Origin: Streptomyces cadmiisoli
GTDB taxonomy: Bacteria > Actinomycetota > Actinomycetes > Streptomycetales > Streptomycetaceae
Reading direction: 5' to 3'
Assembly (NCBI RefSeq): GCF_003261055.1
Contig: NZ_CP030074.1
Span: 434,001 to 498,000, forward strand
DNA length: 64,000 nt
Below the pieces are notes generated by a model. It made no database searches. It was given only the letters and a program-made list of their open reading frames with translations, and had not been told where the DNA came from. Both the position numbers and the translations under genes were made by a program. Positions 446 to 46,238 of this stretch are shown here, piece after piece (positions within the stretch are counted from its first letter, which is position 1; every line of letters starts with the position of its first letter).

Positions 446-1410
446 AAAGAAGGTGGAGCCTGCCCGTTCGCCACGCCGCTGATGCCGGTCGGCGATCAAT
501 GAATGAGGAAAGCAATTTCAGGCGATGCTGGTGCAGACCGCACTATTTTTTGACGCGTAAACCTTGCTCCGGGTTACTCCGAGTGAGATTGTTCCGGTCG
601 ACTGGATGAGGCTTTCTCGTCCCCGGAGTAATGGAATGGTCAGTATTGGCGGAAGTATCTCGATGTCGGTCGTAATGGCACGTTGGGTGTTGTGTGCCCG
701 GTCGACGCCCAGGCTTGAACGCGATGTGCAGAGGAGACGTGGTCCGTGTCCACGCCCGGTCCTCAGGTGACAGTCGGTGGTATCGAGTGCGACGGCACAT
801 CGGTGGAACTCCAGCCGGCCGCCCGTGGCACACGTATTGCCGCACACGAGGTCGCAGGCGGCTTCATGAGCTGCGCGTGTATGTGACAGACCGGCAGACC
901 AAGTGGCAGTGGCCGTCGGCCGAGGAGTTCCAGAAGCTCATTCTCATCGGGTACGGCCGTCCCCGGCGCTCCCGCAACCCGGGCGCGCCGTACATGTTTC
1001 ATCCGGCCTGGCCGCTTCAACGGCGACGCGGGAGGGGCCGACCGCGGTGTCCCAAGCGGGGGTGTGCACACATCTCCGAAGTCGATATGCGAACATACGC
1101 ACATCAGCTTGGGGGATCCCGATGAGCGGGCCAACATACGCAACGCACGTCGGCACGTGATCCTCGGTTGCACCTCGTCCGTATGGCCGTGTTCGCGGTC
1201 ATGTCGGTGACAGCGGCAGCCTCGGGCGCACCATGGTGTCTCGCCAGCGGTATGTGATCCGGCGTACCCACCCCTCGTCGCCGGGCGCTGTCCTCACGCA
1301 GCCGCGGACGCGGCCGCCGTTCTGCCACGCCGCGCCACCCGTAGCGGCGGTGCGACCGGTCGCCCTCCTTCGCGCCCGGACCAACACCCGATGCCTCATG
1401 GGGGATACGT
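64..1410. other. Gene-poor stretch upstream of the PepSY gene
   Basis: Apart from the possible minus-strand frame on its left and one small ORF at 746-886, this 1.35 kb shows no convincing gene. Base composition is less GC-rich than the neighbours between about 480 and 720, and open frames on both strands have random-looking arginine-, proline- and serine-rich translations. It looks like decayed or intergenic DNA. The last 30 bases carry a purine-rich GGGGGA just before the ATG of the PepSY gene. Confidence 0.4.
746..886 (+). CDS. Small cysteine-containing ORF, 46 aa, possibly a decayed gene
   Basis: A GTG at 746 follows a good ribosome binding site (GAGGAG at 731-736, nine-base spacing). 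The product starts VSTPGPQVTVGGIECDGTSV and ends SCACM, with three cysteines. Just beyond about 865 a different frame reads RVYVTDRQTKWQWPSAEEF, which looks more protein-like than the stop reached in the GTG frame. This could therefore be a small gene broken by a frameshift, or a genuine short peptide. No family is recognised. It is the only part of the first 1.4 kb with a translation signal of normal quality. Confidence 0.3.
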   Translation: MSTPGPQVTVGGIECDGTSVELQPAARGTRIAAHEVAGGFMSCACM

Positions 1411-2916
1411 ATGTCTCAGACCCGGAACCAGCCACCGAGTGGCGAGCCCGACGCGGCGTCGCCCTCCGTACGGGAGGTTTCGCAGACACGTGTCTCAGAA
1501 CATGTGCCGAAGACCGATGGCGCAACCCCGGGCCGGACCTGGGGGAGCCTACGACCACTGCTGCTCCGCCTCCATTTCTACGCCGGGGTGCTCGTCGGCC
1601 CGTTCCTGCTCGTCGCCGCGCTGACGGGCCTGGCCTACACCCTCACCCCGCAACTCGACCGCCTCGCCTACGGCGACCGGCTCCTCGTGGAGGACGTCGG
1701 CACCGACCCGATGCCGGTGTCGGTCCAGATCGCCGCCGCCCGGTCCGTTCATCCCGAGGGCACCCTGACCTCGGTCGTCGTCCCGTCGGCACCGGAGGAC
1801 ACGACCCGAGTGGTGCTGTCCGTCCCGGGACTGGGCGACGACCGGCAGCGGACGGTGTTCGTCGACCCGTACACCGCCGAGGTGCAGGGTGAACTGACCA
1901 CGTGGTCGGGGTCGACGCCCGTCACCCACTGGCTCACCGACCTGCACCGCAACCTCCACCTGGGCGAGAACGGCCGCCTCTACTCCGAGGTGGCCGCGAG
2001 CTGGCTCTGGGTGATGGTCGCGGGCGGACTCGTCCTGTGGTTGGCGCGATCCCGTACGCGACGTGGTGAGCGGGCCCGCGCCCTTCTCCTGCCCGAGCGT
2101 TCGGCGCGCGGGGTTCGGCGTACGCGCAGTCGGCATGCTGTCGTCGGCGTGTGGATCACCGCCGGTCTGCTGGTGCTCAGCATGACCGGGCTCACCTGGT
2201 CCCGTTACGCCGGTGACCGCTTCGGGCAACTCCTCGACGCGGCCCAGGCACACGCGCCGGAACTGGTCACCGAGCTGCCCGGCGCGCCCACCGCGACCGG
2301 GGACGACCCCGCGGAGCACCAGGACCATGTCGGCCACGAGGGCGGAGCGGACACGGCTGCGGCGGATCCGGTCGCCTTCGACGAGGTCCTCGCCGTCGCG
2401 CGGGAAGCCGGGCTCGGCGGCAAGGTGGTGCTGACACCGCCCGCCGACTCGGCCACGGCCTGGACGGTCGCGCAGGACGACGACCGCTGGCCCGTCCACT
2501 ACGACCGGGTCGCCGTCGACGCCGCCGCCGGGGAGGTCGTCTCCCACAGCCGCTGGGCCGACTACCCGGTCCTCGCCAAGCTCAGCAGGCTCGGCGTGCA
2601 GGGTCACATGGGCCTGCTGTTCGGCCCCGTGAACCAGATCGTGCTAGCCGTCATCGCCCTCGGCCTGGTCTTCGTGATCCTGTGGGGCTACCGCATGTGG
2701 TGGCAGCGGCGTCCGCGACGCGAGGGCCGTACGGCCCTGTTCGGCAAGGCCCCGGCGAGAGGAGCGTGGCGGTCGCTGCCTCTGCCGGTGCTGCTCATCG
2801 GCGTCCCCGCCGTGCTCGCGCTCGGTTGGGCCCTCCCTGTCCTGGGTGTCACGCTGCTCGCGTTTCTCGTCGTGGACGTCGTACTCGGGCTCGCCCGCCG
2901 GGCTGGCGCGACGTGA
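1411..2916 (+). CDS. PepSY-associated transmembrane protein
   Basis: Predicted inner-membrane protein of 501 aa with the PepSY-TM layout: a disordered N-terminus of about 45 residues, a first membrane segment at about 57-78 (HFYAGVLVGPFLLVAALTGL), an extracytoplasmic PepSY-like region, membrane segments near 195-212 and 243-262, a second PepSY-like region, and three hydrophobic segments from about 405 to the end. A conserved-looking HRNLH follows the first PepSY region. Between membrane segments 3 and 4 lies a histidine-rich stretch (EHQDHVGHEGG) that could bind metal. Family members often accompany ferric or cupric reduction and siderophore uptake, but the biochemical role is not settled. 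The start is ATG 1411 after a purine-rich GGGGGA. The next gene downstream, 505 bases away, is a copper enzyme, so a role in copper or iron handling is inferred. Confidence 0.85.
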   Translation: MSQTRNQPPSGEPDAASPSVREVSQTRVSEHVPKTDGATPGRTWGSLRPLLLRLHFYAGVLVGPFLLVAALTGLAYTLTPQLDRLAYGDRLLVEDVGTDPMPVSVQIAAARSVHPEGTLTSVVVPSAPEDTTRVVLSVPGLGDDRQRTVFVDPYTAEVQGELTTWSGSTPVTHWLTDLHRNLHLGENGRLYSEVAASWLWVMVAGGLVLWLARSRTRRGERARALLLPERSARGVRRTRSRHAVVGVWITAGLLVLSMTGLTWSRYAGDRFGQLLDAAQAHAPELVTELPGAPTATGDDPAEHQDHVGHEGGADTAAADPVAFDEVLAVAREAGLGGKVVLTPPADSATAWTVAQDDDRWPVHYDRVAVDAAAGEVVSHSRWADYPVLAKLSRLGVQGHMGLLFGPVNQIVLAVIALGLVFVILWGYRMWWQRRPRREGRTALFGKAPARGAWRSLPLPVLLIGVPAVLALGWALPVLGVTLLAFLVVDVVLGLARRAGAT

Positions 2917-3421
2917 CACCGACGTGAGACACGTGTGTCGGCATTCCTCCGGTGTTCCGGGCCGGGGAGTGTCGTACCCGTCACACACACCTAAAATTTG
3001 AAGCGTCAAGCAATTGGTGATTTACTTGCCTTCCGGGCAAGGCGTTCGGAACGCGCCGCTCGCTTCCGGTGCTGCTGCCGGCTGATCGCCCGTTTGCATC
3101 CGTCGTGCCGCCACCGAAGCCATCTGCACCGCATCACCGCAATGTGCTGACGCAGGCTCAGCCACCCCACACCAGGCGCCCCGCCGACGCCACAAGCGAG
3201 GACGGGACCTCCCTGGCAGCGCCCGCGGGAACCCTCCGGCAGCCTGGCTCCCTTGCCCACAAGGCACTGAGGACGCCCCGGTGACGCACACGAGCGGCGC
3301 ATGTTCCCGCGTGTCACACCGGGTGCGCCGTGCGGCGTGTCCTCGCGCGGGGGATCCCCGAGCCCGCAACGGCGTCGCAGGTGACTCCCGTGCCTCAGTC
3401 AACGGACAGAATGGGCAACAC
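2917..3421. other. Long leader/intergenic region before the multicopper oxidase
   Basis: These 505 bases contain no convincing gene. Near 2991-3045 is an AT-rich promoter-like patch holding the TTGA-N4-TCAA palindrome (separate entry) and a second inverted repeat, CTTGCC-N5-GGCAAG at 3025-3041. The remainder, about 370 bases, would be a long untranslated leader if transcription starts there, unless a second promoter lies closer to the ATG at 3422. Confidence 0.5.
2998..3026 (+). promoter_or_regulatory. Promoter with TTGA-N4-TCAA palindrome upstream of the multicopper oxidase
   Basis: TTGAAGCGTCAA at 2998-3009 is a palindrome with four-base arms. Its left arm also reads as a -35 hexamer (TTGAAG), followed after 17 bases by TTTACT at 3021-3026 as a -10. 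An operator overlapping the -35 box fits repression. The same palindrome occurs at 5557, 7697 and 13876. Confidence 0.5.
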
Positions 3422-5380
3422 ATGACAAGCACTTCCCGGCGGTCCCTGTTGGGCATGGCCGGTCTGACCACAGCCGCCGTCGCCGTGGGCGGAACCATCG
3501 CCCTCAGGGGGAGCGAATCCCAGGCCCAGGAGCTGACCGGGGCCGCGACCCTGCCGGGCGTCGACACACCGACGCACACCGAGCTGACCCCGTTCAAGGA
3601 CCCGCTGCGCATCCCTCCGACCCTGCGGCTGAACAGCAGGAGCATCACGGAGATCAACCTCGTCAACTCGCGTCAGCGCCTGCACTCGCAGCTGCCTCCC
3701 ACCCGCCTGTGGACCTACGGTGGCCACTTCCCCGGCCCCACCATCGAGGTGCGCAGCGGTCAGAAGGCCCGCGTCGCCTGGAACAACAAGCTGGCGGGCA
3801 CCCTGCCCGTCAAGGCCGTCTGGATACGCCCCGAAGGCCCCGGACCCGGCTTGCTGCCCTACAACCGGCCCGGATCCGAGGGAGGGTTCCCCCGGGCGGA
3901 GGTCGACGGGCTGACCCCGTGGACGACGGTGCATGTGCACGGCGGTCACCAGAACGGCCTCAGTGACGGCGCGTCCGAGTACGGAGTGACGCCGGGCGAC
4001 GCGCAGTTGGCCGAGTTCGCCAACGACCAGGCGGCGGCCCACCTCTTCTACCACGATCACGCCATGGCGATCACCTCGCTGAATGTCGCGGCCGGCCTGG
4101 TGGGCCACTACTTGGTGCGCGACGCGGAGGAGTCCCGGCTCCGGCTGCCTCAGGGCGAGTACGAAATACCCCTGATGATTCAGGAGGTCAACTTCGACAC
4201 CGACGACAAGGGCCGGATCGACGGACGCATCCTGTCCAAGCGGATCGTCCACGGCCCCGAGCCGACTCCCGGAGTCATGCCGCCGGCCCTGGCGTCCCTG
4301 TGCCCGTTCACGATGGTCAACGGCGTCGTCTGGCCGCACCTCGACGTGGAGGCGCGCGCGTACCGCTTCCGTGTGGTGAACATGTCGGGCGTTCGCGTCT
4401 ACCGTCTCGTCGTCGTCGACGAGGAGACCGGCAAGCCCGTCCGCGGCGCCATGAAGCTGATCGGCACGGATCTGGGTCTGCTCGGCAAGCCGCAGACGAT
4501 CGACGAGGCGCTGTCGCTCGCTCCCGCCGAACGCGCGGACCTCGTCATCGACTTCGCCGCGTTCCCCGGCAAGCGGCTCAAGCTCGTGAACACGATCCCG
4601 GGCCAGACTCCCGGCGCGGCCCTGCCGGAGTTCACCATTCCGTACCCGGAGGTCATGCAGTTCCGCGTGGAGAAGAAGCGGAACCCGAAGCCGTACGCGG
4701 TTCCGGCGACGCTGTCCCCGAGGTTCCGGAACATCAAGCCGGGTGACGTCCCCAAGGACGCCACCGAGCGCTTCGTGCTGCTGGCCTTCGACAAGTCCGG
4801 CGCCATGCCACAGATCTGGGAGATGCAGGAAGTCTCCGCGCAGACGGCACCCGGCGACGGCATCGTGCAGATCGAGATCGACGGCACGACCAGGGCCCTG
4901 CGCCGCACGGCGACCGTGTTCGAGGACACCACGACCTTCTTCGCGTCATCCGACACCTGGGAGAAGTGGCACTTCGTCAGCGTCGCGCCGCCCGGTGTGC
5001 CGATCTACCACCCGATGCACATCCACCTGATGAACTTCCAGGTCGTCGAGCGGCGTTCGCTGGATTCCACCGGCCTGGACCACGCCGCGGGGAAGACCAC
5101 GAAGCCCCTCACTCCGGGCGCGGCGCTGCCGATCGCCCCGGAGGAGTCCGGTTGGAAGGACACCGTCAACGTCCAGGCCAACACCATCGTCACGGTCGCG
5201 GGACGGCTGGCGAAGCAGAGCGGCAAGGTGATGTACCACTGCCACATCCTCGACCACGAGGACGAAGGCATGATGCGTCCGTTCGTCATCATGCCGGCGG
5301 CCGTGCACGAGATCCACGGCATGGTCATGGAGATGAACGGCAAGATGGGCGCGGGCCACGGCGCGCACGCGCATTCCTGA
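3422..5380 (+). CDS. Tat-exported multicopper oxidase (laccase / phenoxazinone synthase-like)
   Basis: Secreted or cell-surface oxidase of 652 aa that should couple four one-electron oxidations of a phenol, aminophenol or metal ion to reduction of O2 to water. The N-terminus has a Tat signal (SRRSLLGMAG, then a hydrophobic stretch to about residue 35). Copper-binding motifs are in the usual order: HVHGGHQ near 171, YHDHAM near 209, HPMHIHLMNF near 529, and HCHILDHEDEGMM near 606 with the Cys of the type 1 site and an axial Met downstream. Length and motif spacing match the three-domain CotA / phenoxazinone synthase class rather than the two-domain small laccases. ATG 3422 was chosen because it begins the Tat signal; an upstream in-frame start at 3281 would add an arginine-rich, non-signal stretch. 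Substrate cannot be read from the sequence. Confidence 0.92.
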   Translation: MTSTSRRSLLGMAGLTTAAVAVGGTIALRGSESQAQELTGAATLPGVDTPTHTELTPFKDPLRIPPTLRLNSRSITEINLVNSRQRLHSQLPPTRLWTYGGHFPGPTIEVRSGQKARVAWNNKLAGTLPVKAVWIRPEGPGPGLLPYNRPGSEGGFPRAEVDGLTPWTTVHVHGGHQNGLSDGASEYGVTPGDAQLAEFANDQAAAHLFYHDHAMAITSLNVAAGLVGHYLVRDAEESRLRLPQGEYEIPLMIQEVNFDTDDKGRIDGRILSKRIVHGPEPTPGVMPPALASLCPFTMVNGVVWPHLDVEARAYRFRVVNMSGVRVYRLVVVDEETGKPVRGAMKLIGTDLGLLGKPQTIDEALSLAPAERADLVIDFAAFPGKRLKLVNTIPGQTPGAALPEFTIPYPEVMQFRVEKKRNPKPYAVPATLSPRFRNIKPGDVPKDATERFVLLAFDKSGAMPQIWEMQEVSAQTAPGDGIVQIEIDGTTRALRRTATVFEDTTTFFASSDTWEKWHFVSVAPPGVPIYHPMHIHLMNFQVVERRSLDSTGLDHAAGKTTKPLTPGAALPIAPEESGWKDTVNVQANTIVTVAGRLAKQSGKVMYHCHILDHEDEGMMRPFVIMPAAVHEIHGMVMEMNGKMGAGHGAHAHS

Positions 5381-5419
5381 ACGAAGCAGGGGCCGGCCCT
5401 TCACCCCGCCCCGCGGCGA

Positions 5420-5459
5420 GGCCTCGCACCGGCATCGGTCCTGGTGCCGGTGCGAGGCC
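5420..5459 (+). terminator. Perfect 15-bp hairpin after the multicopper oxidase
   Basis: GGCCTCGCACCGGCA at 5420-5434 pairs fully with 5445-5459 around a ten-base loop, 40 bases after the stop codon. It is followed closely by a second hairpin, giving a tandem terminator. Confidence 0.75.
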
Positions 5460-5491
5460 GCCCGGGGCGGGTCCCGGTCGCTCCGCTTCGG

Positions 5492-5523
5492 GGCCGTCCC
5501 GGCGGTTCGCCGCCGGGACGGCC
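5492..5523 (+). terminator. 14-bp hairpin with TTCG tetraloop
   Basis: GGCCGTCCCGGCGG at 5492-5505 pairs perfectly with 5510-5523 across a stable TTCG tetraloop. It is the second element of a tandem terminator isolating the oxidase from the SnoaL-like gene. Confidence 0.75.
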
Positions 5524-5556
5524 TCCGCCGTCACCCGCCCTACGAGCAGTAGACTA

Positions 5557-5585
5557 TTGACGCGACAAATAACTTCGAGTATCGG
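5557..5585 (+). promoter_or_regulatory. Promoter with variant TTGA-N4-TCAA palindrome before the SnoaL-like gene
   Basis: TTGACG at 5557-5562, a 17-base spacer and TATCGG at 5580-5585 form a plausible housekeeping promoter 26 bases upstream of the ATG at 5611. The -35 lies in TTGACGCGACAA (5557-5568), the same palindrome as at 2998, 7697 and 13876 with one mismatch in the right arm. Confidence 0.5.
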
Positions 5586-5610
5586 CAGCAGAGGAAACCC
5601 GACATTCATC

Positions 5611-6342
5611 ATGACGACGCCACTCGATCGCTACTTCGAAATCCTCAACCGCGTCGACGATGATCGGTCCAGCCTCCAGGAAATTCCGGCAATCTTCGCC
5701 GAGAATGCGCTACTGCTGGACTGCGGAGAGTTTGTCCAGGGCCAGGAGAGGGCGGTCGCCTTTCTCCACCGGAAAGCGGACCGTCGCCAGGAGGCCCGAT
5801 ATTTTTGGAAATCTTCCGTGGGCGAGGACGGAGTCATCACCGCTCACTGGAGCGAGGTCGGGCAGGACCGGGCCGGGACGGAATTCTATGCGTGCGGCCG
5901 TGCCACGGTCGTACCGGACCGGCACGGCAGGATCTCGTACCTCAACCTGACTTTGGCCGGCTCCTCCGACCGCGCCAGGCTTCTCACGGCCAAGCACATG
6001 CAGGTCTGGTCGATTCCCGACCGGCGCGAACGTGCCCTGGCCATGGAGGAGGTCTACGCCGAGGACATCACGTTCATGGAACCCGAACCCGACCGTGTTC
6101 TCGTGGGCCGGGACGTCCTGAACGACTACATCGGCGCCGCACGGCACCAGGCTCCGCTCGTGAGCATGGAGGTCGAGAGCTTCTACCGGAACCAGGAATC
6201 CGCGGTCTTCCGCTGGGACGCGGTCCTGCCGGACGACAGCACGGCGGTCGGCTGGGAGTTCCTCTACACGGCGTCGGACCTGATCGAGAGGGTTGTCGTC
6301 TTCGGCCCGAACCGCGAAGCCATGACCGAGGGGCCGAGGTAG
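5611..6342 (+). CDS. Two-domain SnoaL-like (NTF2-fold) protein
   Basis: Cytoplasmic protein of 243 aa that appears to be a tandem of two NTF2/SnoaL-like domains (about 1-115 and 125-235). Each starts with a helix (RYFEILNRVDDDRSSLQEIP; RRERALAMEEVYAEDITFME) and ends in beta strands, with aromatic and acidic residues lining likely pockets. Single-domain members include polyketide cyclases and small-molecule isomerases or hydrolases, and many have unknown substrates. The start ATG 5611 is preceded by GAGGAAA at 5591-5597. The gene stands alone between a tandem terminator and the nitrilase leader, and its promoter carries the shared palindrome. No catalytic assignment is safe. Confidence 0.7.
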   Translation: MTTPLDRYFEILNRVDDDRSSLQEIPAIFAENALLLDCGEFVQGQERAVAFLHRKADRRQEARYFWKSSVGEDGVITAHWSEVGQDRAGTEFYACGRATVVPDRHGRISYLNLTLAGSSDRARLLTAKHMQVWSIPDRRERALAMEEVYAEDITFMEPEPDRVLVGRDVLNDYIGAARHQAPLVSMEVESFYRNQESAVFRWDAVLPDDSTAVGWEFLYTASDLIERVVVFGPNREAMTEGPR

Positions 6343-6646
6343 TTCGCCCTCGTCCCCGGTGGAACTTCGCGCGGCCTCCGGCGAGTGTGGTCAGCGGCAC
6401 GTCGCGGCACGGCGCGCGCGGCGGGGTCGTTCGCTAATATAGGAGCATGTACTCCTAATGGAGGATGGCCGGCCCCGGGGCCCCGCCGACCGACAGGCCG
6501 GCGGGCGATGCGCGGGGCGGCCGACCGCGCGGGCCGCGGACGCACCGCGCCCGAGCGAACCGCAAGCCCTCCACATCGTGTGCGACCGACCCGGGCGGCG
6601 CCGTGCCGCACGCCGCACCGAATCACGTGAGCAGAAGGAGCCCCCC
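6343..6646. other. Leader region of the nitrilase with inverted repeat
   Basis: The first half has no gene. A TAATAT (6436-6441) that may be a -10 runs into the inverted repeat TAGGAG-N6-CTCCTA at 6440-6457, a likely operator. The remaining 190 bases to the nitrilase start are GC-rich without a gene. A strong AAGGAG sits at 6635-6640. Confidence 0.45.
6440..6457 (+). promoter_or_regulatory. Inverted repeat TAGGAG-N6-CTCCTA, likely operator
   Basis: Six-base perfect arms separated by CATGTA directly abut a TAATAT -10-like box. The position just downstream of a -10 is typical of an operator that blocks transcription start. It is the only such repeat near the nitrilase gene, about 190 bases upstream of its ATG. 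Confidence 0.45.
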
Positions 6647-7636
6647 ATGACCGTCGTACGAGCAGCCGCAGTGCAGATCAGCCCCGTGCTCTACAGCCGG
6701 GCCGGCGCCGTCGAGAAGGTCGTCGGCAAGATCCGCGAGTTGGGGAAGCGGGGTGTCCAGTTCGCCGTGTTCCCCGAGACCGTCGTCCCGTACTACCCCT
6801 ACTTCTCCTTCGTGCAGCCGCCCTTCAAGATGGCCAAGGAACACCTGCGCCTGCTGGAGGAGGCGGTGACCGTGCCGTCCGCCGCGACCGACGCGATCGC
6901 CGAGGCCGCCCGCGAGGCCCGGATGGTCGTCTCCATCGGGGTCAACGAGCGGGACGGCGGCACCATCTACAACACGCAGCTGCTCTTCGACGCGGACGGC
7001 ACGCTGATCCAGCGCCGACGCAAGATCACGCCCACGTATCACGAGCGGATGATCTGGGGCCAGGGCGACGGTTCCGGTCTGCGTGCGGTGGACAGCGCCG
7101 TGGGCCGGGTCGGCCAGCTCGCCTGCTGGGAGCACTACCTGCCGCTCGCGCGTTACGCCCTGATCGCCGACGGGGAGCAGATCCACGCCGCGATGTACCC
7201 GGGTGCCTTCGGCGGCCAGCAGTTCGCCGACCAGATCGAGGTCAACATCCGTCAGCACGCCCTGGAGTCGGCCTGCTTCGTGGTGAACGCCACCGCGTGG
7301 CTCGACGCCGACCAGCAGGCGCAGATCGCCGAGGACACCGGCGGTCCCGTCGCCGCGATCTCCGGTGGCTTCTTCACCGCCATCGTGGACCCCGAGGGGC
7401 GCATCATGGGCGAGCCGCTCACCTCGGGCGAGGGCGAGGTCATCGCCGACCTGGACTTCGCGAAGATCGACCTCCGCAAGCGCCTGATGGACTCGCGCGG
7501 CCACTACAGCCGCCCCGAACTGCTCAGCCTGCAGATCGAGCGCACCCCGGCGCCGCACGTCCACCAGCGCGGGGACCGTACGCCGGAGCAGACCGCTCGG
7601 GCGGCCGAAGAGGGTGGCTCCGCCGAAGCGCGGTGA
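6647..7636 (+). CDS. Nitrilase of the Nit6803 / Nit1 type
   Basis: Cytoplasmic carbon-nitrogen hydrolase of 329 aa expected to convert nitriles to carboxylic acids and ammonia through a Glu-Lys-Cys triad. The triad is visible: E44 in [16 protein letters not shown]126 in [20 protein letters not shown], and nucleophile C160 in [13 protein letters not shown]. These flanks closely resemble those remembered for the cyanobacterial nitrilase Nit6803, including [10 protein letters not shown] and [13 protein letters not shown] near the C-terminus. Length is normal. ATG 6647 is preceded by AAGGAG with a six-base gap; an earlier in-frame ATG at 6458 would add a random-looking Arg/Pro-rich leader. Close relatives often sit in a conserved multi-gene Nit1C cluster (radical SAM, acetyltransferase, AIR synthase, flavoprotein). 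None of those partners is present here. Confidence 0.92.
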
Positions 7637-7696
7637 GCCGGTGCGGCCGCGGGGCGAAGGGCACACCTCTCACACGTGTGCCGGCTCCGAAGTTCG

Positions 7697-7724
7697 TTGA
7701 CGTATCAAACAGTTGCCATATACT
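7697..7724 (+). promoter_or_regulatory. Near-consensus promoter with TTGA-N4-TCAA palindrome; probably leaderless transcript
   Basis: TTGACG at 7697-7702, a 16-base spacer and TATACT at 7719-7724 make one of the best housekeeping promoters in the window. The palindrome TTGACGTATCAA (7697-7708) covers the -35. The expected start of transcription, about seven bases after the -10, falls on the GTG at 7731. Confidence 0.65.
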
Positions 7725-7730
7725 GCGGCG

Positions 7731-8723
7731 GTGTTCGTCTACGCGGCTGCGTTCTTCTTCGTCATATTCTGCCTCTCCGTTCTGTACGATCCCCGCCGCT
7801 TCGGCAACGCCGTCCTCCTCGGTATCACGGTGGTCCTGCTGGCCATCTACGCGATTGCGAAGACCGAGGATTCCCCGGCGATGTTGGAAGCGATCGTCAT
7901 CGGCGCTTGTGTGCTTCTTCTTCTGGGCAGCTTCACATTGGCGTTCTTCCTGATCGCGAACGGTGTGAAGATGCTCCGCAAGGAGGGCAGGCGCCTGGGG
8001 AACCTGCTCTCGCTGCTGACCGGACTGGCGACCCTCGGTTTCATCGCGTTGCTCGGCGCGGCCGTCCTCGGCAAGTCCGACATCGTCGTTCGCCTCGCGG
8101 GCGCCGCGATCCCGGTGGTCGGCTACGTCTCCTTCCTCTTCCTCTGCTTCCTGGGCTACGCGTTCCTCTACGGGCGGCTCCCGGTGCGGCGGAACGTCGA
8201 CTTCGTGGTCGTCCTCGGATCGGGCCTCGTCGGCGGCTCCCGGGTGCCGCGGCTGCTGGCCAACAGACTGGATCGCGGGCGCGCCGTGTATGAGGCACAG
8301 GCCGCGCGCGGCAACCCGCCGGTCCTGCTCACCTCCGGCGGGCAGGGCCCGGACGAGGATCTGCCCGAGGCCGACGCCATGGCCCGGTACCTCGTCGAAC
8401 GCGGCTTCCCCGAGGAGCGCGTCCAGCGCGAGAACCGCTCCCGCACCACCGACGAGAACCTGCGCTTCAGCAAGTCGATCATGGAGGAACTCAAGCCGGA
8501 CTACCGGTGCGTCGTCGTCACCAACAACTTCCATGTGTTCCGCGCGGCCATCACCGCGCGGAAGGCCGGAGTCAGGGGCCAGGTCGTCGGCGCACCCACC
8601 GCCGCGTACTTCTGGCCCAGCGCGACGATCCGGGAGTTCATCGCGGTCTTCCTGAGGCACAAGGCGGTCAACCTCGGGATCACCCTGGTGCTCGGCCTGT
8701 TGGGCGTCAGCGCCGACCTGTAG
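7731..8723 (+). CDS. Membrane-anchored YdcF / DUF218 family protein
   Basis: Integral membrane protein of 330 aa. Five or so hydrophobic segments fill residues 1-150 (for example VLLGITVVLLAIYAIAK and ATLGFIALLGAAVL). The C-terminal half is a DUF218 domain: VDFVVVLGSGL, then LLTSGGQGPDEDLPEADAMA, RTTDENLRFSK and VVTNNFHVFRA, the signature order of the YdcF family. YdcF-like proteins are linked to envelope or vancomycin-related phenotypes (SanA) and bind nucleotide-like ligands, but the reaction is unknown. GTG 7731 is preferred because it lies where transcription should begin and no ribosome binding site is visible, which suggests a leaderless mRNA. A TTG at 7713 is in frame but would overlap the -10 box. 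Confidence 0.85.
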   Translation: MFVYAAAFFFVIFCLSVLYDPRRFGNAVLLGITVVLLAIYAIAKTEDSPAMLEAIVIGACVLLLLGSFTLAFFLIANGVKMLRKEGRRLGNLLSLLTGLATLGFIALLGAAVLGKSDIVVRLAGAAIPVVGYVSFLFLCFLGYAFLYGRLPVRRNVDFVVVLGSGLVGGSRVPRLLANRLDRGRAVYEAQAARGNPPVLLTSGGQGPDEDLPEADAMARYLVERGFPEERVQRENRSRTTDENLRFSKSIMEELKPDYRCVVVTNNFHVFRAAITARKAGVRGQVVGAPTAAYFWPSATIREFIAVFLRHKAVNLGITLVLGLLGVSADL

Positions 8724-8760
8724 GGCCCGCGCCCCGTGCGCCGTCCGGCCGTGGACCCGC

Positions 8761-10602
8761 TCAGGACGGCACGTTGTCCGGACACGGACCGCCGGGAAGG
8801 CGCAGGGTGAACACCGCCCCGGCACCGGGCGTGCTCTCGGCGGTCACCGTGCCGTCGTGCGCCTCCACGAACTGGCGCACGATGGACAGGCCCAGCCCGC
8901 TGCCGCCGGTGCGCCGGTTGCGGGACTTCTCGGCCCGCCAGAAGCGCTCGAACACCTGGGGCAGGTCCTCGGCGGAGATCCCGCTGCCCGTGTCCCGGAC
9001 GGTGAGCACCACCGTGTCGCCGTCCGGCGCGGCCGTGAGCGTGATGGTGCCGCCGGCGGGTGTGTGCCGCAGCGAGTTCGAGACCAGGTTGCCCAGGACC
9101 TGGCGCATCCGCACCGGATCGGCGTCGAGCCACAGACCGGGCTCGGTACGACTGTCCAGACGGATGTCCGAGGCGTCGGCCCGGCCGCGGTGGGCGTACA
9201 CCACCTGCGCCACGAGTTCGTCAGCGCTCACCGGTTCGCGGTGCAGCTCCAGCGTGCCGGCGTCGCCCGCCGCGAGGTCCCGCAGATCGTCGATGATGTG
9301 CTGGAGCAGCAGCGCCTCGTCGTGCAGCGAGGCGATCAGGTCCGGGTCCGGGTCGACCAGCCCGTCGCGGGTGACCTCCAGCCAGCCCCGGATATTGGTC
9401 AGCGGGGTCCGCAGCTCATGCGCGACATCGCTGACCATGGCCTTGCGCTGGGCCTCCAACTGTTCACGGCGCTCGGTGAGTTCGTTGAAGGCCGCGGCCA
9501 GGCGGCCGGTCTCGTCCTTGGTGGTGACGGCGACCCGCGCGTGCAGCTGCGGCGGTTGCAGCGCCGCCGCGGTCAGGGCCCGCAGCGGGCGCACGAGACG
9601 GATCGCCACGGCCGCCGTCAGGGCGAGGGTCAGGACGAGGATCGCCGCGGTGACACCGACGATCTTGGCCTTGTTGCCGGTGGACAGGTCGAACACCGAG
9701 ATCCGCTGGTCCTGATCCTGGCCGCTGCCCAGGTAGAGCAGCGCCCGCGGGGCGACGTACGGTTCGAGCTGACTGCGCTGCGAGCTGTCTATGCAGTCCT
9801 GGGTCTTCTGGTGGTCGATTGCCGGGCCGGTGTGGACCTTGCTCCTGGTCCCGAAGTGGGTGATGAGCGAGACGCCGAGTCCGAACTTGGCGACGCCCCC
9901 GTCCCGTCCGGGGCCGAGACAGGCCGTCACCAGCTTGTTGAGTTCGTCCAGCGCCTTCGCCTCGGTCTCGGTGGGCGTGTTGAGGGATCCGTCTGCGCAC
10001 TCGATGGGCACGTCGGCCTCCTCGCCGTCGGCGACGATGACCGTGCGTCCGCTGGGGACCTGCCGGAAGGTGCCGGTGCTGCCGTACCGTTCCATGCACG
10101 CCAGACGCTTCTGAGCGACGACACGTACCTGCTTGCGTTCGGTGGCGTCGAGCGCGTACGGGCCCACCGCACGCGGGTCGATGCCGGAGAGCTGGGCGCC
10201 CGGTTCGGTGTAGGTGTCGGTCCGCAACGGGTCGATGGTGGCCGAGGCGCGGGCCGGCAGCGCCATCCCCGCCGAGTGCGAGTCGGCGATGACACGGCCG
10301 GACGTGGTCGTCACGGCGATACGCCGGCCCGTGGTGTCCGACAGCGCGCGCACCGAAGCCTGAACTCCGTCCCAGTCCTCGTGGGTCGCGGCGAAACCGC
10401 TCAGCCGCCGCAGGATGTCGGTGTCGTCGGAGAGCAGCTGACCGCGTTCCTCCTGGACGGCGCGGGTGGTGGTCTCGACCGCCAGCCAGGCCGTGGCCCC
10501 GACGGACACGACGATGATCGTCATGGAGGTGAGCAGCAGCCGTACCAGCAGGCTCTGACGCCAGGGCACGCCCAGGCGGGACGCGGCGGGGCGGGCCGTC
10601 AC
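8761..10602 (-). CDS. Sensor histidine kinase, HisKA type
   Basis: Membrane sensor of 613 aa pairing with the response regulator encoded just upstream. It has a membrane segment near 18-38, an extracytoplasmic sensor domain of about 230 residues with several cysteines (RLACMERYG, PIECADGS, VTACLGPG, TQDCIDSS), a second membrane segment near 287-310, a HAMP linker, the phosphoacceptor box VAHELRTPLTNIRGW near 392, and an ATPase domain with N box (GNLVSNSLRHTP), DTGSGI and GGSGLGLSIV. The paired extracytoplasmic cysteines suggest a disulfide-stabilised sensor. The start GTG 10602 overlaps the regulator stop by four bases (GTGA), so the pair is translationally coupled. The two divergent L,D-transpeptidases are the probable targets, which suggests cell-wall stress sensing. 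Confidence 0.93.
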   Translation of the reverse strand: MTARPAASRLGVPWRQSLLVRLLLTSMTIIVVSVGATAWLAVETTTRAVQEERGQLLSDDTDILRRLSGFAATHEDWDGVQASVRALSDTTGRRIAVTTTSGRVIADSHSAGMALPARASATIDPLRTDTYTEPGAQLSGIDPRAVGPYALDATERKQVRVVAQKRLACMERYGSTGTFRQVPSGRTVIVADGEEADVPIECADGSLNTPTETEAKALDELNKLVTACLGPGRDGGVAKFGLGVSLITHFGTRSKVHTGPAIDHQKTQDCIDSSQRSQLEPYVAPRALLYLGSGQDQDQRISVFDLSTGNKAKIVGVTAAILVLTLALTAAVAIRLVRPLRALTAAALQPPQLHARVAVTTKDETGRLAAAFNELTERREQLEAQRKAMVSDVAHELRTPLTNIRGWLEVTRDGLVDPDPDLIASLHDEALLLQHIIDDLRDLAAGDAGTLELHREPVSADELVAQVVYAHRGRADASDIRLDSRTEPGLWLDADPVRMRQVLGNLVSNSLRHTPAGGTITLTAAPDGDTVVLTVRDTGSGISAEDLPQVFERFWRAEKSRNRRTGGSGLGLSIVRQFVEAHDGTVTAESTPGAGAVFTLRLPGGPCPDNVPS

Positions 10603-11291
10603 GGCGTACCGACCAGCTTGTAGCCGACGCCGAAGACGGTCAGCAGCCGGACCGGCCTGCGCGGGTCCGGTTCGATCTTCTTGCGCAGGTTCATGATGTG
10701 CACGTCGATGGCGCGCTCGGTGGACGCGCGGTCGTGGCCGCGGGTGTGCTGGAGCAGCTGGCGACGCGAGAAGACCCGGCCGGGTTCCGCGACCATCGCC
10801 CGGAGGATGGCGAACTCGCCCGGGGTGCAGGTGACAGGGGAGCCGTCGCAGGTCGCCAGGTGCCGGATCGGATCGACGGTGACACCGCCCGCGCGCAGCA
10901 CCGGAGAGGATTCCGCGGCGCGCAGCGTACGGCGCAGCACGGTGCGTATGCGGGCCATCAGCTCCCGGGGGCTGTACGGCTTGGTCATGTAGTCGTCCGC
11001 GCCGAGTTCGAGACCGAGGAGCAGGTCCTCCTCGGCCGAGCGCGCGGTGAGCATCAGGATCGGGATCGGCTCGTCCTCGTCGTCGCGCAGCGCGCGGCAG
11101 ACCCCGTATCCGTCGACCTCGGGGAGCATCAGGTCCAGGACGATCAGGTCGGGCCTGCGGCGCCGGGCCTCCTCGATCGCGGCCCGTCCGTCGGAGACCA
11201 GGAAGGCGCAGTGGCCCTCCTTCACCAGGAGCCGGCGAATCAGCTCCGCCTGCATGTCGTCGTCTTCCGCGACCAGCACATGTGCGCACAC
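10599..11291 (-). CDS. OmpR/PhoB-family response regulator
   Basis: DNA-binding regulator of 230 aa. The receiver domain has acidic residues EDDD near 9-12, phosphoacceptor D53 in LIVLDLMLPEVDGYG, T in LMLTARS and K in YMTKPYS. The C-terminal winged helix runs from about 135 to 228 (ERAIDVHIMNLRKKIEPDP is the recognition region). The start is taken as GTG 11291, which begins the first beta strand (CAHVLVAEDDD). An ATG at 11348 would add a poorly structured leader. No ribosome binding site is obvious. A 17-base motif in the divergent promoter region (11352-11368) recurs before the second transpeptidase gene and is the best candidate for its binding site, implying autoregulation. Confidence 0.93.
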   Translation of the reverse strand: MCAHVLVAEDDDMQAELIRRLLVKEGHCAFLVSDGRAAIEEARRRRPDLIVLDLMLPEVDGYGVCRALRDDEDEPIPILMLTARSAEEDLLLGLELGADDYMTKPYSPRELMARIRTVLRRTLRAAESSPVLRAGGVTVDPIRHLATCDGSPVTCTPGEFAILRAMVAEPGRVFSRRQLLQHTRGHDRASTERAIDVHIMNLRKKIEPDPRRPVRLLTVFGVGYKLVGTP

Positions 11292-11615
11292 GTCGTCGAC
11301 TCTAAACGGGCCGGAACACCGGCGGACGGTGGGTGTTGGCCTTCCCACGACCTGACAACTTCCTCACACCCGGGTGTCAGCATGAGCCACACCCCGAGGC
11401 GTGCGCCCGGTGCCGGCGCCGTCGTGCCGTGCCCGCGGGACGCGAGGGCGGTCGCGAGCCGTGACCGCCGCGGCGGACGCGGGCGTGGCCGCGGACGCAG
11501 CGGTCCGCGCCCGGCCCGCCGTCGTGGCGCCGAACGGCGCCCGCCGCACGCCGGCCGGGGCCCGCAGCTCCCACCACCGGTGGGGCGTACCGCTCCCGCA
11601 CACGACGGAGACACC
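11292..11615. other. Divergent promoter region between the two-component system and the first L,D-transpeptidase
   Basis: No gene is seen. The region holds CTGACAACTTCCTCACA at 11352-11368 and an overlapping perfect palindrome ACACCCGGGTGT at 11366-11377. The 220 bases before the ATG at 11616 are very GC-rich and translate to arginine/proline-rich text in all frames. Confidence 0.55.
11352..11368 (+). promoter_or_regulatory. 17-bp motif, copy 1: putative response-regulator binding site
   Basis: CTGACAACTTCCTCACA matches 16 of 17 bases with the sequence at 12920-12936 before the second L,D-transpeptidase gene. Its placement between the regulator gene and its presumed target fits a cognate site controlling both directions. 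Confidence 0.6.
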
Positions 11616-12830
11616 ATGCACCGCATCCGCACCGCTCTGCCCCGCCCCGTCCGGGCCGTGGCCGTGCTGTCCGTCTCGGCATGCCTTCTGGCGGGCTGCG
11701 GCGGCAGCCCGCGGTCCGAGGACGACAGCGCGAAGAAGCCCCCGGCCGGGGCCGCGGCGCAACCACGCATCGTCCTCAACGCCACCGACGGGCAGAAGGG
11801 TGTGTCCGTCCGCAGCGGCGGCCGGATCGAGGTCGAGCACGGCTCGATCGCCAAGGCGTCCCTGGTCACGGCGGACGGCGCCACCGTGCCCGGCAAAGCC
11901 TCGCGGGACAACAGGACATGGTCGCCCGACGCCGCCCTCGACCACGGCACCACCTACCGGCTGACGGCCGTCGCCACCGGCGGGAAGGGCGCGAAGGCGA
12001 CCGAGCGGGTCACCTTCACGACCCTCGACGAGGACGACCGTTTCGTCGGCACGTACGTTCCGGAGCACGGCTCGAAGGTCGGCGTGGGGATGCCGGTCTC
12101 GTTCACCTTCGACAAGGCGATCACCGACAAGAAGGCCGTGGAGTCCGGCATCTCGGTCAGCTCCAGCAGCGGACAGAAGGTCGTCGGCCACTGGTTCGGC
12201 GCGCAGCGTCTCGACTTCCGCCCGCAGGAGTACTGGGAGGCCGGGTCCACCGTGACGGTCCGGATCCGCCTCGACGGCGTCAAGGGCGCCGAGGACGCCT
12301 ACGGCGAGCAGGACAAGACCGTCCGGTTCACCGTCGGGCGCAGTCAGGTCTCCACCGTGGACGCCGCCAGGCACCGGATGCGCGTCGTCCGCGACGGCCG
12401 AACGATACGGGACATACCCATCACCGCGGGCGCCGCGAGCTCGCCCACCTGGAACGGCCGGATGGTGATCTCGGAGAAGCTGGTCAGCACCCGGATGGAC
12501 GGGGCCACGGTGGGGTTCGCCGGTGAGTACGACATCCCCGACGTCCCGCACGCGATGCGCCTTTCCACGTCGGGCACGTTCATCCACGGCAACTACTGGG
12601 GCGACGACTCGGTGTTCGGCCGGTCCAACATCAGCCACGGCTGCGTCGGCCTCAACGACGTCCAGGGCGGCGGCGACGCGTCCCAGGACGGTGCCTGGTT
12701 CTACGCGAACTCCCTCCTCGGCGACGTCGTCGTGGTGCGCAACTCCCAGGACGCGACCATCGCCCCTGACAACGGCCTCAACGGCTGGAACATGCCGTGG
12801 AAGGAGTGGGTGGCGGGCTCCGCACGCTGA
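11616..12830 (+). CDS. Lipoprotein L,D-transpeptidase with Ig-like domains (LdtMt2 type)
   Basis: Cell-envelope enzyme of 404 aa that forms 3-3 cross-links in peptidoglycan. A lipoprotein signal ends in LLAGC with the acylated cysteine at residue 28. Two Ig-like domains follow (about 50-150 and 150-250), then a YkuD catalytic domain with the His of TFIHGNYWGDD near 323 and the motif SHGCVGL with nucleophile cysteine near 343. A C-terminal extension (GLNGWNMPWKEWVAGS) resembles that of mycobacterial LdtMt2. The start ATG 11616 follows ACGGAG with a short gap. It is divergent from an OmpR-type two-component system and followed by a second transpeptidase with the same upstream motif, so control by that system is inferred. 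Confidence 0.93.
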   Translation: MHRIRTALPRPVRAVAVLSVSACLLAGCGGSPRSEDDSAKKPPAGAAAQPRIVLNATDGQKGVSVRSGGRIEVEHGSIAKASLVTADGATVPGKASRDNRTWSPDAALDHGTTYRLTAVATGGKGAKATERVTFTTLDEDDRFVGTYVPEHGSKVGVGMPVSFTFDKAITDKKAVESGISVSSSSGQKVVGHWFGAQRLDFRPQEYWEAGSTVTVRIRLDGVKGAEDAYGEQDKTVRFTVGRSQVSTVDAARHRMRVVRDGRTIRDIPITAGAASSPTWNGRMVISEKLVSTRMDGATVGFAGEYDIPDVPHAMRLSTSGTFIHGNYWGDDSVFGRSNISHGCVGLNDVQGGGDASQDGAWFYANSLLGDVVVVRNSQDATIAPDNGLNGWNMPWKEWVAGSAR

Positions 12831-12919
12831 GGCCGGCCCGCGGCCGGTGTGCGGGAATCCCGGCCGGCCGCGCCCGCACGCACGCCCGCACACGCCCGTT
12901 CGACAACGGACCGAAGACG

Positions 12920-12936
12920 CTGACCACTTCCTCACA
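12920..12936 (+). promoter_or_regulatory. 17-bp motif, copy 2: putative response-regulator binding site
   Basis: CTGACCACTTCCTCACA differs in one base from the copy at 11352. It lies 22 bases before the ATG at 12959, close enough to overlap the promoter of the second L,D-transpeptidase. Confidence 0.6.
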
Positions 12937-12958
12937 TGTGTCGTCCAGGCTGATCGAC

Positions 12959-13843
12959 ATGGCTTCACGTACTCGCCTCACATCACGGCGTTCCCGCACA
13001 CCGCGCCCGGACCAGCAGGCGTCCGTGTCCCCGTCCCGGCCGGTGGGCCGCCTGACGGCGCTGGCCGTCACCCTTGCCGCGTCCACGGCCCTCACCGGGT
13101 GCGCGGGCGGCGACGCCTGGACGGGCGGCAGCGCCTCGAACCCGTCCGCGGCGGCGGACGAGGTGACGCACACCCCCGCGGACGGGCCCGGCACGGCACA
13201 GGGCAAAGCCCTGCCGAAGGACGGGACTTCCGCGGAGAGCACTCCGGAGGCGGCTCCCGAGGAGCTGCCGGGGGTGGGCCCCCGGACGCTGGCACAGATA
13301 CCGCAGAACACCCGGCAGGTCGTCCTCGTCACCGGCCGTGGCAAGGACTCCTCGGATTCCGAGGCGGTGGTGTACGAGCGGACGAGTGCCGGCTGGCAGC
13401 CGGGCGCGACCTGGCCGGCCCACAACGCCCTGAACGGCTGGACCGACGACCACCGCCTCGGCGACGGGCGGTCCCCCATCGGCGTGTTCACCCTCACCGA
13501 CGCCGGCGGGCTGCTGCCGGACCCGGGCACCGAGCTGCCCTACGACCAGTCGACGGGCTTCACCATCAGGGGCACCGGATCCCTCGGCGAGCCGCTCGCG
13601 GGCTCCTTCGACTACGTCGTCGCCATCAACTACAACCGCAAGCCCGGCCTCACGCCGCTGGACTGGACCCGCCCCCTGGGTGCCGGAAAGGGCGGCGGCA
13701 TCTGGCTGCACGTCGACCACGAGGGCCCCACCCAGGGCTGTGTGAGCCTGAAGAAGGAGCACATGAGGGAACTGCTGCTGACGCTCGACCCCGGCCTGCA
13801 CCCGGTGGTCGTCATGGGAGACGCCGCATCCCTGCGCCGGTGA
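12959..13843 (+). CDS. Lipoprotein with L,D-transpeptidase (YkuD-like) catalytic domain
   Basis: Exported lipoprotein of 294 aa. An arginine-rich n-region, hydrophobic core and lipobox (ALTGC, acylated Cys 48) are followed by a Ser/Pro/Ala-rich linker to about 100. The catalytic domain has GDGRSPIGVFTL, and GIWLHVDHEGPTQGCVSL supplies the catalytic histidine and cysteine (near 250 and 260). Unlike its neighbour it has no Ig-like domains, so the two are not simple duplicates; this variant resembles the group whose members may act as transpeptidases or carboxypeptidases on peptidoglycan. ATG 12959 lacks a clear ribosome binding site, and an in-frame GTG at 12938 is an alternative start next to the 17-base motif. 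Probably under the same regulator as the gene before it. Confidence 0.87.
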   Translation: MASRTRLTSRRSRTPRPDQQASVSPSRPVGRLTALAVTLAASTALTGCAGGDAWTGGSASNPSAAADEVTHTPADGPGTAQGKALPKDGTSAESTPEAAPEELPGVGPRTLAQIPQNTRQVVLVTGRGKDSSDSEAVVYERTSAGWQPGATWPAHNALNGWTDDHRLGDGRSPIGVFTLTDAGGLLPDPGTELPYDQSTGFTIRGTGSLGEPLAGSFDYVVAINYNRKPGLTPLDWTRPLGAGKGGGIWLHVDHEGPTQGCVSLKKEHMRELLLTLDPGLHPVVVMGDAASLRR

Positions 13844-13875
13844 GACGGTGGACCCGGACCCCCGGACCGACTTAA

Positions 13876-13894
13876 TTGATACGTCAAGTATAGT
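13876..13894 (+). promoter_or_regulatory. TTGA-N4-TCAA palindrome overlapping a -10 box, glycosyltransferase promoter
   Basis: TTGATACGTCAA at 13876-13887 is followed at once by TATAGT (13889-13894), a good -10, with only a weak -35 (CCGACT) 16 bases upstream of it. The palindrome is the exact reverse complement of the one at 7697 and would block the promoter if bound. Confidence 0.55.
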
Positions 13895-13959
13895 CGGGTG
13901 CCTGCCCGGCGGCTGTTCGCAGTCGCACAGAGCACGTACGGGAAAACGGGTTCACTGCC

Positions 13960-15099
13960 ATGCGCGTCCTGATGTTCAACAACCCCCTGACCGGCCACTT
14001 CCTGCCGCTGCTGCCGCTGGCGCGGGCCCTGCGCGCCCAGGGACACACCGTCGCCTTCGTCACCGCGGCGAGCATGGCCGGTTCCATCGAGCCGGAGGGA
14101 TTCGTCCACATTCCCGCCGGCCCGACGGTCGAAGCCACGATCGCCGAGGTGAACCGCCGTACGGGCAGCGACATCATGGCGAAGCCGTCGCCCGCGGTCG
14201 TGGCGGAGTTCTTCGCCGGGGTACGGGTCGACCTCGCCGCCGACGAGGCGCTGGCCGGGGCGCGGGCGTGGGAGCCGGACCTGGTCATGTCCGAGCACTG
14301 CGACTTCGTGGGGCCGCTGGTCGCCGCCGTCCTCAAGGTGCCGTCCGCCGTCATGGCCATCGATCCGGCGCTGGAGCCGGAGGCGCTGGTGGCCATGGCG
14401 CGGGTGGCGCGCCCTCGATACCTCGAGCGCGGTCTGGAGGCGCCGGGCGACGCCGCGCCATTCGGACGCTGGCTGGTGGACCTCTGCCCGCCCAGCCTGC
14501 AACGCGGCGGTGCGCTGCCGGCCCTGGAGCGCCTGCCGCTGCGGCCGGAACCCCACCAGGGCACCGAAGGCCACTCCGGCGCCGACCCCGTGGCCGCGAC
14601 CGGTCGCCCCCGGGTCCTGGTCAGCTTCAGTACCGTACTCGCCTCGCCGGCCCTCGGACCGGTGCTGCGGTCGCTGAGCGCGCTGGACGTCGATCTGGTG
14701 GCCACGACCGGCAGCAGGCCCACCGACGGTTTCGGTCTGGAGCCGGGACGCGTCGAACTGGTCTCCTTCCGGCCCGCCGCACAGCTGCTGGACGGCGTGT
14801 CGGTCGTGGTGCACCACGGTGGTTCCGGCAACACGTTCGGCGCCGCCGCCCGCGGTGTCCCCGCTGTCGTCGTACCGGGCATGGCCGGTCAGCAGCGCCA
14901 GGCCGACCGTCTTCAGGCCGCCGGAGCCGGGATCGCCCTGCCCGTCGGGAAGCAGTCGCCGGAGTCGGTCGCCGCCGCGGTCGCCCGGCTGCTCGCCGAG
15001 CCCTCGTACACCGAAGCGGCCCACCGCCTGCGCGACGAGATCGCCGCGATGCCGTCGGCCTCCGAGGTGGCCGAGCGCCTCGCCGCCGCCGTCTCCTGA
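13960..15099 (+). CDS. GT1-family glycosyltransferase (MGT-like)
   Basis: Cytoplasmic glycosyltransferase of 379 aa with the GT-B layout. The N-terminal acceptor domain begins MRVLMFNNPLTGHFLPLLPL, with the expected histidine at about residue 13. The C-terminal donor domain has VHHGGSGNTFGAAARGVPAV and an end resembling the sugar-nucleotide site (PGMAGQQRQADRL). Similar enzymes glycosylate macrolides and other secondary metabolites, or inactivate antibiotics with UDP-glucose. The typical final D/E-Q pair is replaced by GQQRQ, so donor choice is uncertain. It stands alone; the promoter contains the palindrome shared with three other genes of the left part, so it may belong to a xenobiotic or antibiotic response. 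Confidence 0.88.
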   Translation: MRVLMFNNPLTGHFLPLLPLARALRAQGHTVAFVTAASMAGSIEPEGFVHIPAGPTVEATIAEVNRRTGSDIMAKPSPAVVAEFFAGVRVDLAADEALAGARAWEPDLVMSEHCDFVGPLVAAVLKVPSAVMAIDPALEPEALVAMARVARPRYLERGLEAPGDAAPFGRWLVDLCPPSLQRGGALPALERLPLRPEPHQGTEGHSGADPVAATGRPRVLVSFSTVLASPALGPVLRSLSALDVDLVATTGSRPTDGFGLEPGRVELVSFRPAAQLLDGVSVVVHHGGSGNTFGAAARGVPAVVVPGMAGQQRQADRLQAAGAGIALPVGKQSPESVAAAVARLLAEPSYTEAAHRLRDEIAAMPSASEVAERLAAAVS

Positions 15100-46164: not shown

Positions 46165-46238
46165 CGCCGGGTGGAGCAGGTAGGCAGCTCGCTGGGCTCA
46201 TAACCCAGAGGTCGCGGGTTCAAATCCCGCCTCGGCCA
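46165..46238 (+). tRNA. tRNA-Met, initiator type (anticodon CAT)
   Basis: The 74 bases fold as a cloverleaf: acceptor CGCCGGG/CTCGGCC with the first pair C1-C72 unpaired and one G-U pair; D stem GAGC/GCTC with loop AGGTAGGCA; anticodon stem CTGGG/CCCAG with loop CTCATAA, anticodon CAT at 46199-46201; variable AGGTC; T stem GCGGG/CCCGC with TTCAAAT. The unpaired first acceptor position and three G-C pairs next to the anticodon loop are features of initiator tRNA. CCA is not encoded (ACG follows). A closer match to the usual Streptomyces initiator would have a different acceptor stem, so this may be a second, variant copy. Confidence 0.92.

Follow-up and report, generated by a model that had tools for sequence, protein, structure and literature searches.

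A 64-kb stretch of the Streptomyces cadmiisoli genome (C2:434001-498000, the window hereafter) carries, towards its left end, four promoters that share the dyad TTGA-N4-TCAA, which raises the question of whether they belong to one regulon and which repressor might control it. An earlier interpretation of the letters of the window (the sequence-only reading) had proposed an undescribed local regulon with its repressor encoded elsewhere. The analysis presented here indicates that the dyads are probably operators of an AbsC/SCO3205-type MarR regulator. The best candidates are MarR-A, encoded just outside the window, and its chromosomal twin (79 % identical), acting singly or together. This proposal draws on the statistics and spacing of the sites, their co-location with MarR-A, the dyads ahead of relatives of two window genes and the subfamily assignment by sequence. 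The genome (10.24 Mb) comprises the contigs C1 (9.27 Mb, with mirrored ends) and C2 (970 kb), to which C1 and C2 coordinates refer, while L-numbers are labels of the loci examined.

Dyads in the window and their promoters

The exact dyad is present three times in the window, compared with a mean of 0.10 in dinucleotide-preserving shuffles, none of 100 of which reached three, in agreement with the expectation that such matches would be rare by chance. When one mismatch is allowed, nine matches are found (the three exact ones included) versus a mean of 4.39, a total reached by 3 of the 100 shuffles, so that the mismatched copy at 5557 is weak taken alone. All four sequences were confirmed, as was the single mismatch of that copy.

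The clearest promoter context is that of the exact dyad TTGACGTATCAA (7697–7708), which lies over the −35 box of TTGACG-16-TATACT, the sole consensus promoter detected within positions 2900–14000. It precedes the gene of a YdcF-like DUF218 membrane protein (7731–8723, plus strand), the mRNA of which is probably leaderless, starting at the GTG at 7731. The exact dyad TTGATACGTCAA (13876–13887), located 84 bp 5′ of the ATG of an EryCIII-like glycosyltransferase gene (13960–15099, plus strand), is followed by one base and then by TATAGT. The mismatched TTGACGCGACAA (5557–5568) occupies the −35 position of TTGACG-17-TATCGG, a promoter with a weak −10 box, ahead of the genes of a SnoaL-like protein of 243 aa (5611–6342, plus strand) and a carbon–nitrogen hydrolase of the Nit6803-type nitrilase kind (6458–7636, plus strand; ORF as called, with the start probably further in), which scores slightly under the NCBIfam cut-off. 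The remaining exact dyad, TTGAAGCGTCAA (2998–3009), with TAAAAT immediately 5′ of it, is found between the genes of a PepSY-associated transmembrane protein (1411–2916, plus strand) and a PhsA-like multicopper oxidase (3422–5380, plus strand; start inferred, searches made on the ORF 3281–5380), which reaches 655 bits against the PhsA-type NCBIfam model, under its cut-off of 950. Since this dyad is 413 bp away from the probable start codon of the oxidase gene (ATG at 3422), that gene is only a possible target. The claim that every copy sits on a −35 or beside a −10 box stands for some of the sites only.

Genome-wide distribution

In the whole genome, 40 exact dyads were counted versus 8 occurrences of the reversed pattern, and the spacings N3 and N5 gave 16 and 18, which disfavours a random frequency of the motif. 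With 28 and 47 matches, the reversed patterns of N3 and N5 show how noisy this kind of control is; the excess of the dyad therefore amounts to approximately two- to five-fold, depending on the yardstick. The removal of six copies of TTGAGAACTCAA with identical flanks and of five terminal-repeat duplicates reduces the 40 matches to 29 distinct sites. The tested TTGAGAACTCAA copy (L008) is located ~160 bp 5′ of a 16S rRNA gene, and the five dyads at 165–190 kb of C1 are mirrored at 9.08–9.10 Mb, which suggests terminal inverted repeats of ~190 kb or longer.

The 29 sites are distributed over both replicons, with 8 on C2 (8.2 per Mb) versus 2.3 per Mb on C1, and the regulon, if shared, is thus not only local as had been supposed, though the left end of the window is clustered: four sites, including the three exact dyads of the window, fall within 16.3 kb (C2:431595-447887), which for 4 of 26 sites (those less than 400 bp apart being merged, and the span taken from the data) corresponds to a simulated P of 1.5e-4. 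According to a simple gene caller, 24 of the 29 sites and 6 of the 8 control sites are intergenic, so that intergenic placement does not discriminate between them; the other five sites lie 0–162 nt inside called starts. Some of the exact dyads are probably sites of other regulators, judging from two copies of TGGATCGGTCAA and one of TTGATTGATCAA, 16 bp apart, ahead of a PadR gene (L021:2535-2578, i.e. C1:7756034-7756077). The copy TTGAAAAATCAA at C1:5460234, just 5′ of tmRNA, is probably unrelated, although it is still counted among the 29. Across 199 genomes of the genus, 1308 matches of the rRNA-free pattern TTGAHNNDTCAA stand against 414 for the control, and the S. cadmiisoli genome ranks first with 33 (control, 5).

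MarR-A and its twin

A chromosomal MarR gene (L006) is located 5′ of, and in the same direction as, a glycosyltransferase gene with two dyads (C1:1059755 and 1059798), and a search with this MarR in the 199 genomes returned a 79 %-identical twin encoded in the same genome at C2:433438-433938, namely MarR-A. From its likely ATG, the MarR-A gene extends over C2:433483-433941 (L030:6483-6941; window approximately −517 to −59) and ends ~60 bp to the left of window base 1. The protein is a MarR winged-helix protein (PF12802, 47.4 bits; cut-off, 27). Its profile matches the solved structures of AbsC (4.9e-20) and of the SCO3205–DNA complex (2e-19) far ahead of the next MarR (7.6e-7), and the single sequence gives the same order (1.3e-15 for AbsC, 2.4e-12 for SCO3205 and 4e-5 for the next). 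Inside the window, no MarR of the AbsC/SCO3205 type was found at E<=1e-8 (TetR-type genes were not searched for), which agrees with the sequence-only reading; that reading placed the repressor elsewhere, which is correct to the letter, though the likely one is next door.

Nine homologues encoded in the genome score below E 1e-30, and four of these are of the MarR-A type; a MarR-A paralogue is located at C1:1103774, and the gene of the probable SCO3205 counterpart at C1:5177037 carries TTTAACTCTCAA and TTTAACTTTCAA upstream. Between MarR-A and the exact dyad at C2:431595, a 201-aa protein is encoded on the minus strand (L030:4944-5549), 56 % identical to a BlaI-like protein that adjoins MarR-A in L094. 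The everted pattern TCAA-N4-TTGA was also considered and rejected, as its apparent enrichment (6) includes four matches inside the MarR-A coding start.

Dyads around MarR genes of other Streptomyces

The association between the dyad and these regulators extends to other Streptomyces. In the upstream regions (250 bp plus 45 bp of gene start) of 30 MarR homologues, one best match from each of 30 genomes and picked by similarity alone, TTG-N6-CAA occurs at 3.28/kb (29 matches, at 16 of the 30 homologues) versus 0.13/kb in the flanks, with 4 matches of the reversed pattern. The exact dyad occurs seven times in these stretches (at 5 of the 30 homologues) versus three times in ten times larger flanks.

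When the genome collection was scanned with the MarR-A alignment, 17 loci (322.8 kb) were obtained from 13 genomes, all Streptomyces. These loci contain 25 exact dyads, distributed over 11 of the 17, and no reversed match, compared with a Markov mean of 0.43 (maximum 2 in 30 runs). When the spacing was varied from N0 to N14, the 25 matches at N4 stood against one each at N0 and N6, none at N1–N3, N5 or N7, four at N8 and 0 to 2 each at N9–N14. An additional plasmid MarR-A locus, that of NBC_01558, carries three exact dyads. At the level of whole genomes, the mean number of dyads was 11.2 in the 11 genomes (S. cadmiisoli excluded) in which a MarR-A homologue reached E<=1e-40, a cut-off chosen after the list was seen, versus 6.2 in the other 187; the size-adjusted association of MarR-A with dyad number had a P of 0.005, versus 0.53 for the control pattern.

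Candidate target genes

Dyads precede relatives of two window genes. For glycosyltransferases of the window's type, a dyad is found ahead of seven of eight genes (the window's included): three of the four own copies (the window's included) have a dyad in which at least one of the halves is TTGA, and all four that adjoin MarR-A in other species have one, at −138 to −141. These four foreign upstream regions are just 25–32 % alike when compared ungapped, those of L096 and L105 being alignable with gaps. In the fourth own copy (C2:698292, L143), which has no dyad, TTCAATG-N11-CATTGAA lies just upstream and is perhaps a different operator.

SnoaL genes of the window's type are preceded by a dyad in three of four cases (the window's included), comprising two of three own copies (the one-mismatch site of the window and L012; the L090 copy is without) and the L104 relative, which is 57.5 % identical. 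At L012 (C1:4705470-4705525), two dyads are embedded in a perfect inverted repeat with 20-bp arms and a 16-bp spacer, which exceeds what an operator needs. At E<=1e-30, this SnoaL was found in S. cadmiisoli only among the 199 genomes of the genus, and a search of the plasmid collection for relatives returned no match at E<=1e-5.

A luciferase-like monooxygenase operon of two genes, usually followed by an F420 reductase gene, carries paired TTG-N6-CAA dyads 27–30 bp apart in all ten copies with the start present (L094, L096, L099, L100, L101, L103, L106, L107, L149 and the own L022); L099, L100 and L106, which are contigs of L092, L093 and L095, were counted once, and L107 and L149, which have a similar layout, may not be independent. 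The own operon (dyad pair at C1:8399518) is 78/81 % identical. Other own dyads lie ahead of genes encoding rifampin-monooxygenase-like flavoproteins, an arylamine N-acetyltransferase and a glyoxalase-fold protein; PIG-L and lipoprotein genes also follow own dyads, at a greater distance. The promoters of L001, L003, L026 and L032 are homologous from the dyad to at least ~60 bp downstream, and their half-sites are kept while the central bases differ (AGCA, CTCG, CGCG and AGCA, respectively). The conservation anticipated by the sequence-only reading thus holds ahead of glycosyltransferase and SnoaL relatives and not ahead of the small number of relatives examined for the oxidase, the nitrilase and YdcF.

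A proposed regulon and its alternatives

MarR proteins usually repress transcription by blocking RNA polymerase, and this mode fits the dyads described here since they overlap the −35 box (5557, 7697) or the spacer just 5′ of the −10 box (13876). Repression, MarR-A as its agent and relief by a small molecule are inferred by analogy with the family; binding, the acting paralogue, the inducer and the physiological role are likewise inferred. The two recognition helices of the MarR dimer would contact TTGA and TCAA, one half-site each, and the dimer would cover the −35 box or the spacer ahead of the −10 box, thereby blocking transcription, until a small molecule, perhaps aromatic or antibiotic-like, releases it. 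The regulon would take in the glycosyltransferase gene, the SnoaL gene with the nitrilase gene behind it and the luciferase-like monooxygenase operon with its two dyads ~28 bp apart; the rifampin-monooxygenase-like flavoproteins and the arylamine N-acetyltransferase are possible further members, as possibly are YdcF and the oxidase. Such a set, on chromosome and megaplasmid, looks like xenobiotic defence. A more tentative extension, somewhat less likely than not, is an exchangeable multi-operon xenobiotic-resistance regulon on megaplasmids and chromosome arms, which enzymes unrelated to each other (glycosyltransferase, flavin monooxygenases, N-acetyltransferase, SnoaL and nitrilase) would join by acquiring the 12-bp operator; MarR-A and its paralogues would control it, with the chromosomal and plasmid MarR twins sharing both replicons.

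Several observations weigh against assigning the dyads to MarR-A. The exact dyad is absent from 6 of the 17 MarR-A loci and from the NBC_01483 plasmid locus, and the promoters of MarR-A and of its twin carry just TTGCGTGAGCAA and TTGTTCGATCAA, respectively. Of the three base-contacting residues of SCO3205, two are altered in MarR-A (Arg72 to Leu and His77 to Arg). Three of the four foreign glycosyltransferase dyads are TTGA-N4-GCAA, one letter off, and only that of L104 is exact. The looser motif TTGMNNNNKCAA was rejected, as it shows no genome-wide enrichment (93 vs 110), and for this reason the genome counts use the symmetric form only; with the N3/N5 background of 16–18, chance could account for roughly half of the 29 own sites. 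Some of the own and window cases were found via the dyad itself, and those free of this bias are the four foreign glycosyltransferases and the L104 SnoaL, which were fetched through MarR-A. Finally, no dyad was found in ~7-kb stretches around relatives on other plasmids, namely four YdcF relatives (of 44 matching plasmid records), one oxidase and one nitrilase (more nitrilase records matched, e.g. H3 and H4); since the oxidase and YdcF relatives are without a dyad, the case for the 2998 and 7697 sites is a statistical one.

The strongest alternative, to which we would give roughly one chance in a few, is that the dyads are bound mainly by another MarR of the AbsC/SCO3205 subfamily, or by several with overlapping specificity, MarR-A among them. 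The nine own homologues offer candidates. The gene of MarR-B, another member of the subfamily, is oriented divergently from the dyad pair in L100, L107 and L108, as is that of an annotated MarR in L149, which likewise counts against MarR-A; both MarR-B and the L087 MarR adjoin dyads and have AbsC and SCO3205 as their nearest solved relatives. The authors of the SCO3205 study expect the regulons of SCO3205, AbsC and SCO7727 to overlap (PMC3737563). On the other hand, MarR-A adjoins the window cluster, its twin lies directly 5′ of the glycosyltransferase gene with the two-dyad promoter, and in L104 similarity to the labelled set revealed no MarR other than MarR-A.

It is improbable that the dyads are due to chance or are a promoter artefact, in which palindromes arise without a shared regulator because TTGA starts −35 boxes. 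The genome-wide counts at N3 and N5, the intergenic position of most control sites and the dyad-free relatives of YdcF, oxidase and nitrilase are compatible with it; the MarR-A loci, with their 25 matches at N4 versus none at N1–N3, N5 or in the reversed control, and the retention of dyads at diverged promoters are not readily explained in this way. That the element is the rifamycin-associated element (RAE) is very improbable: rifampin-monooxygenase-like genes follow some sites and the FAD monooxygenases of L028 and L025 match the rif_monoox model with 411 and 397 bits, below its cut-off of 800, but the RAE is described as a 19-bp palindrome, its letters differ from the 12-bp dyad, and with the Rgt model the window glycosyltransferase scores no more than 34 bits of 800.

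Attributing the dyads to MarR-A and/or its twin would provide a concrete repressor gene and a short promoter list for what is probably a chemical-defence gene set of Streptomyces, apparently scattered and shared by several species. The inducer, once found, would reveal the substrates of these enzymes, and the AbsC/SCO3205 subfamily, of known structure and little understood function, would gain testable targets.

Other features of the window

Between MarR-A and the PepSY gene (window 1–1410), the simple gene caller found no convincing gene apart from a short minus-strand edge ORF, and an Rfam search of the same interval returned no match; a near-dyad, TTGACGCGTAAA, is present at window 550. A single tRNA gene (window 46165–46238) is located on the 970-kb C2 replicon.

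Comparison with known systems

A literature search by dyad letters and MarR terms, which left most subscription journals outside, found no description of this regulon. The word "undescribed" can therefore stand for the regulon in the literature searched and not for the operator type, which is that of SCO3205 (PMC3737563). In that paper, SCO3205 of Streptomyces coelicolor (PDB 3zpl) binds O3204 and O3205 with the consensus TTnAAnnnTCAA, and the footprinted 24-mer of O3204 (KD 1.3 nM) includes TTGAACTCTCAA, an exact TTGA-N4-TCAA; PMC8070244 ascribes TTnAAnnnTCAA to MalR of Corynebacterium, at odds with PMC3737563.

The likeness comprises the same MarR subfamily by sequence, a 12-bp dyad with TT/AA ends, a TCAA half-site and N4, and two operators per intergenic region. 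In contrast to SCO3205, the fifth letter A of TTnAAnnnTCAA is absent from the window dyads except that at 2998, the half-site in the MarR-A loci is mostly TTGAC (41/50), and SCO3204 is an extradiol-dioxygenase relative, unlike the enzymes considered here. The 15 DNA contacts of SCO3205 compared (those of the section on the C-terminal tail excluded, and the numbering matched by hand to the alignment) include seven that are identical in MarR-A (Arg60, Met61, Ser73, Arg81, Arg90, Asp96 and Arg98), two that are exchanged (Thr62 to Ser and Ser76 to Thr) and six that are changed (Arg72, Arg74, His77, Lys97, Gly99 and Gln100), as far as that source lists them. The pair Trp16/His119 of the effector (salicylate) pocket of SCO3205 and AbsC is replaced by Leu/Asn, which bears on the ligand and not on the fold or the DNA site. 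With contacts partly kept and the pocket pair replaced, a similar DNA site is plausible and the ligand is probably different.

AbsC (SCO5405, PDB 3zmd), the closest solved relative of MarR-A, differs in that PMC3737563, citing other work, connects it with zinc-dependent antibiotic production. CtcS of Streptomyces aureofaciens is likewise a Streptomyces MarR repressor with its site over the −10/−35 region and is released by an antibiotic, but its half-sites are CTTGTC (PMC6905112). The RAE, described as lying over promoters of antibiotic-modifying enzymes with an unknown regulator, resembles the dyads in being a palindrome over promoters and differs in its length of 19 bp. Set beside these systems, the dyads are best read as real operators whose type and MarR subfamily are both known already; what is new, as far as the literature searched shows, is the regulon and not the kind of system.

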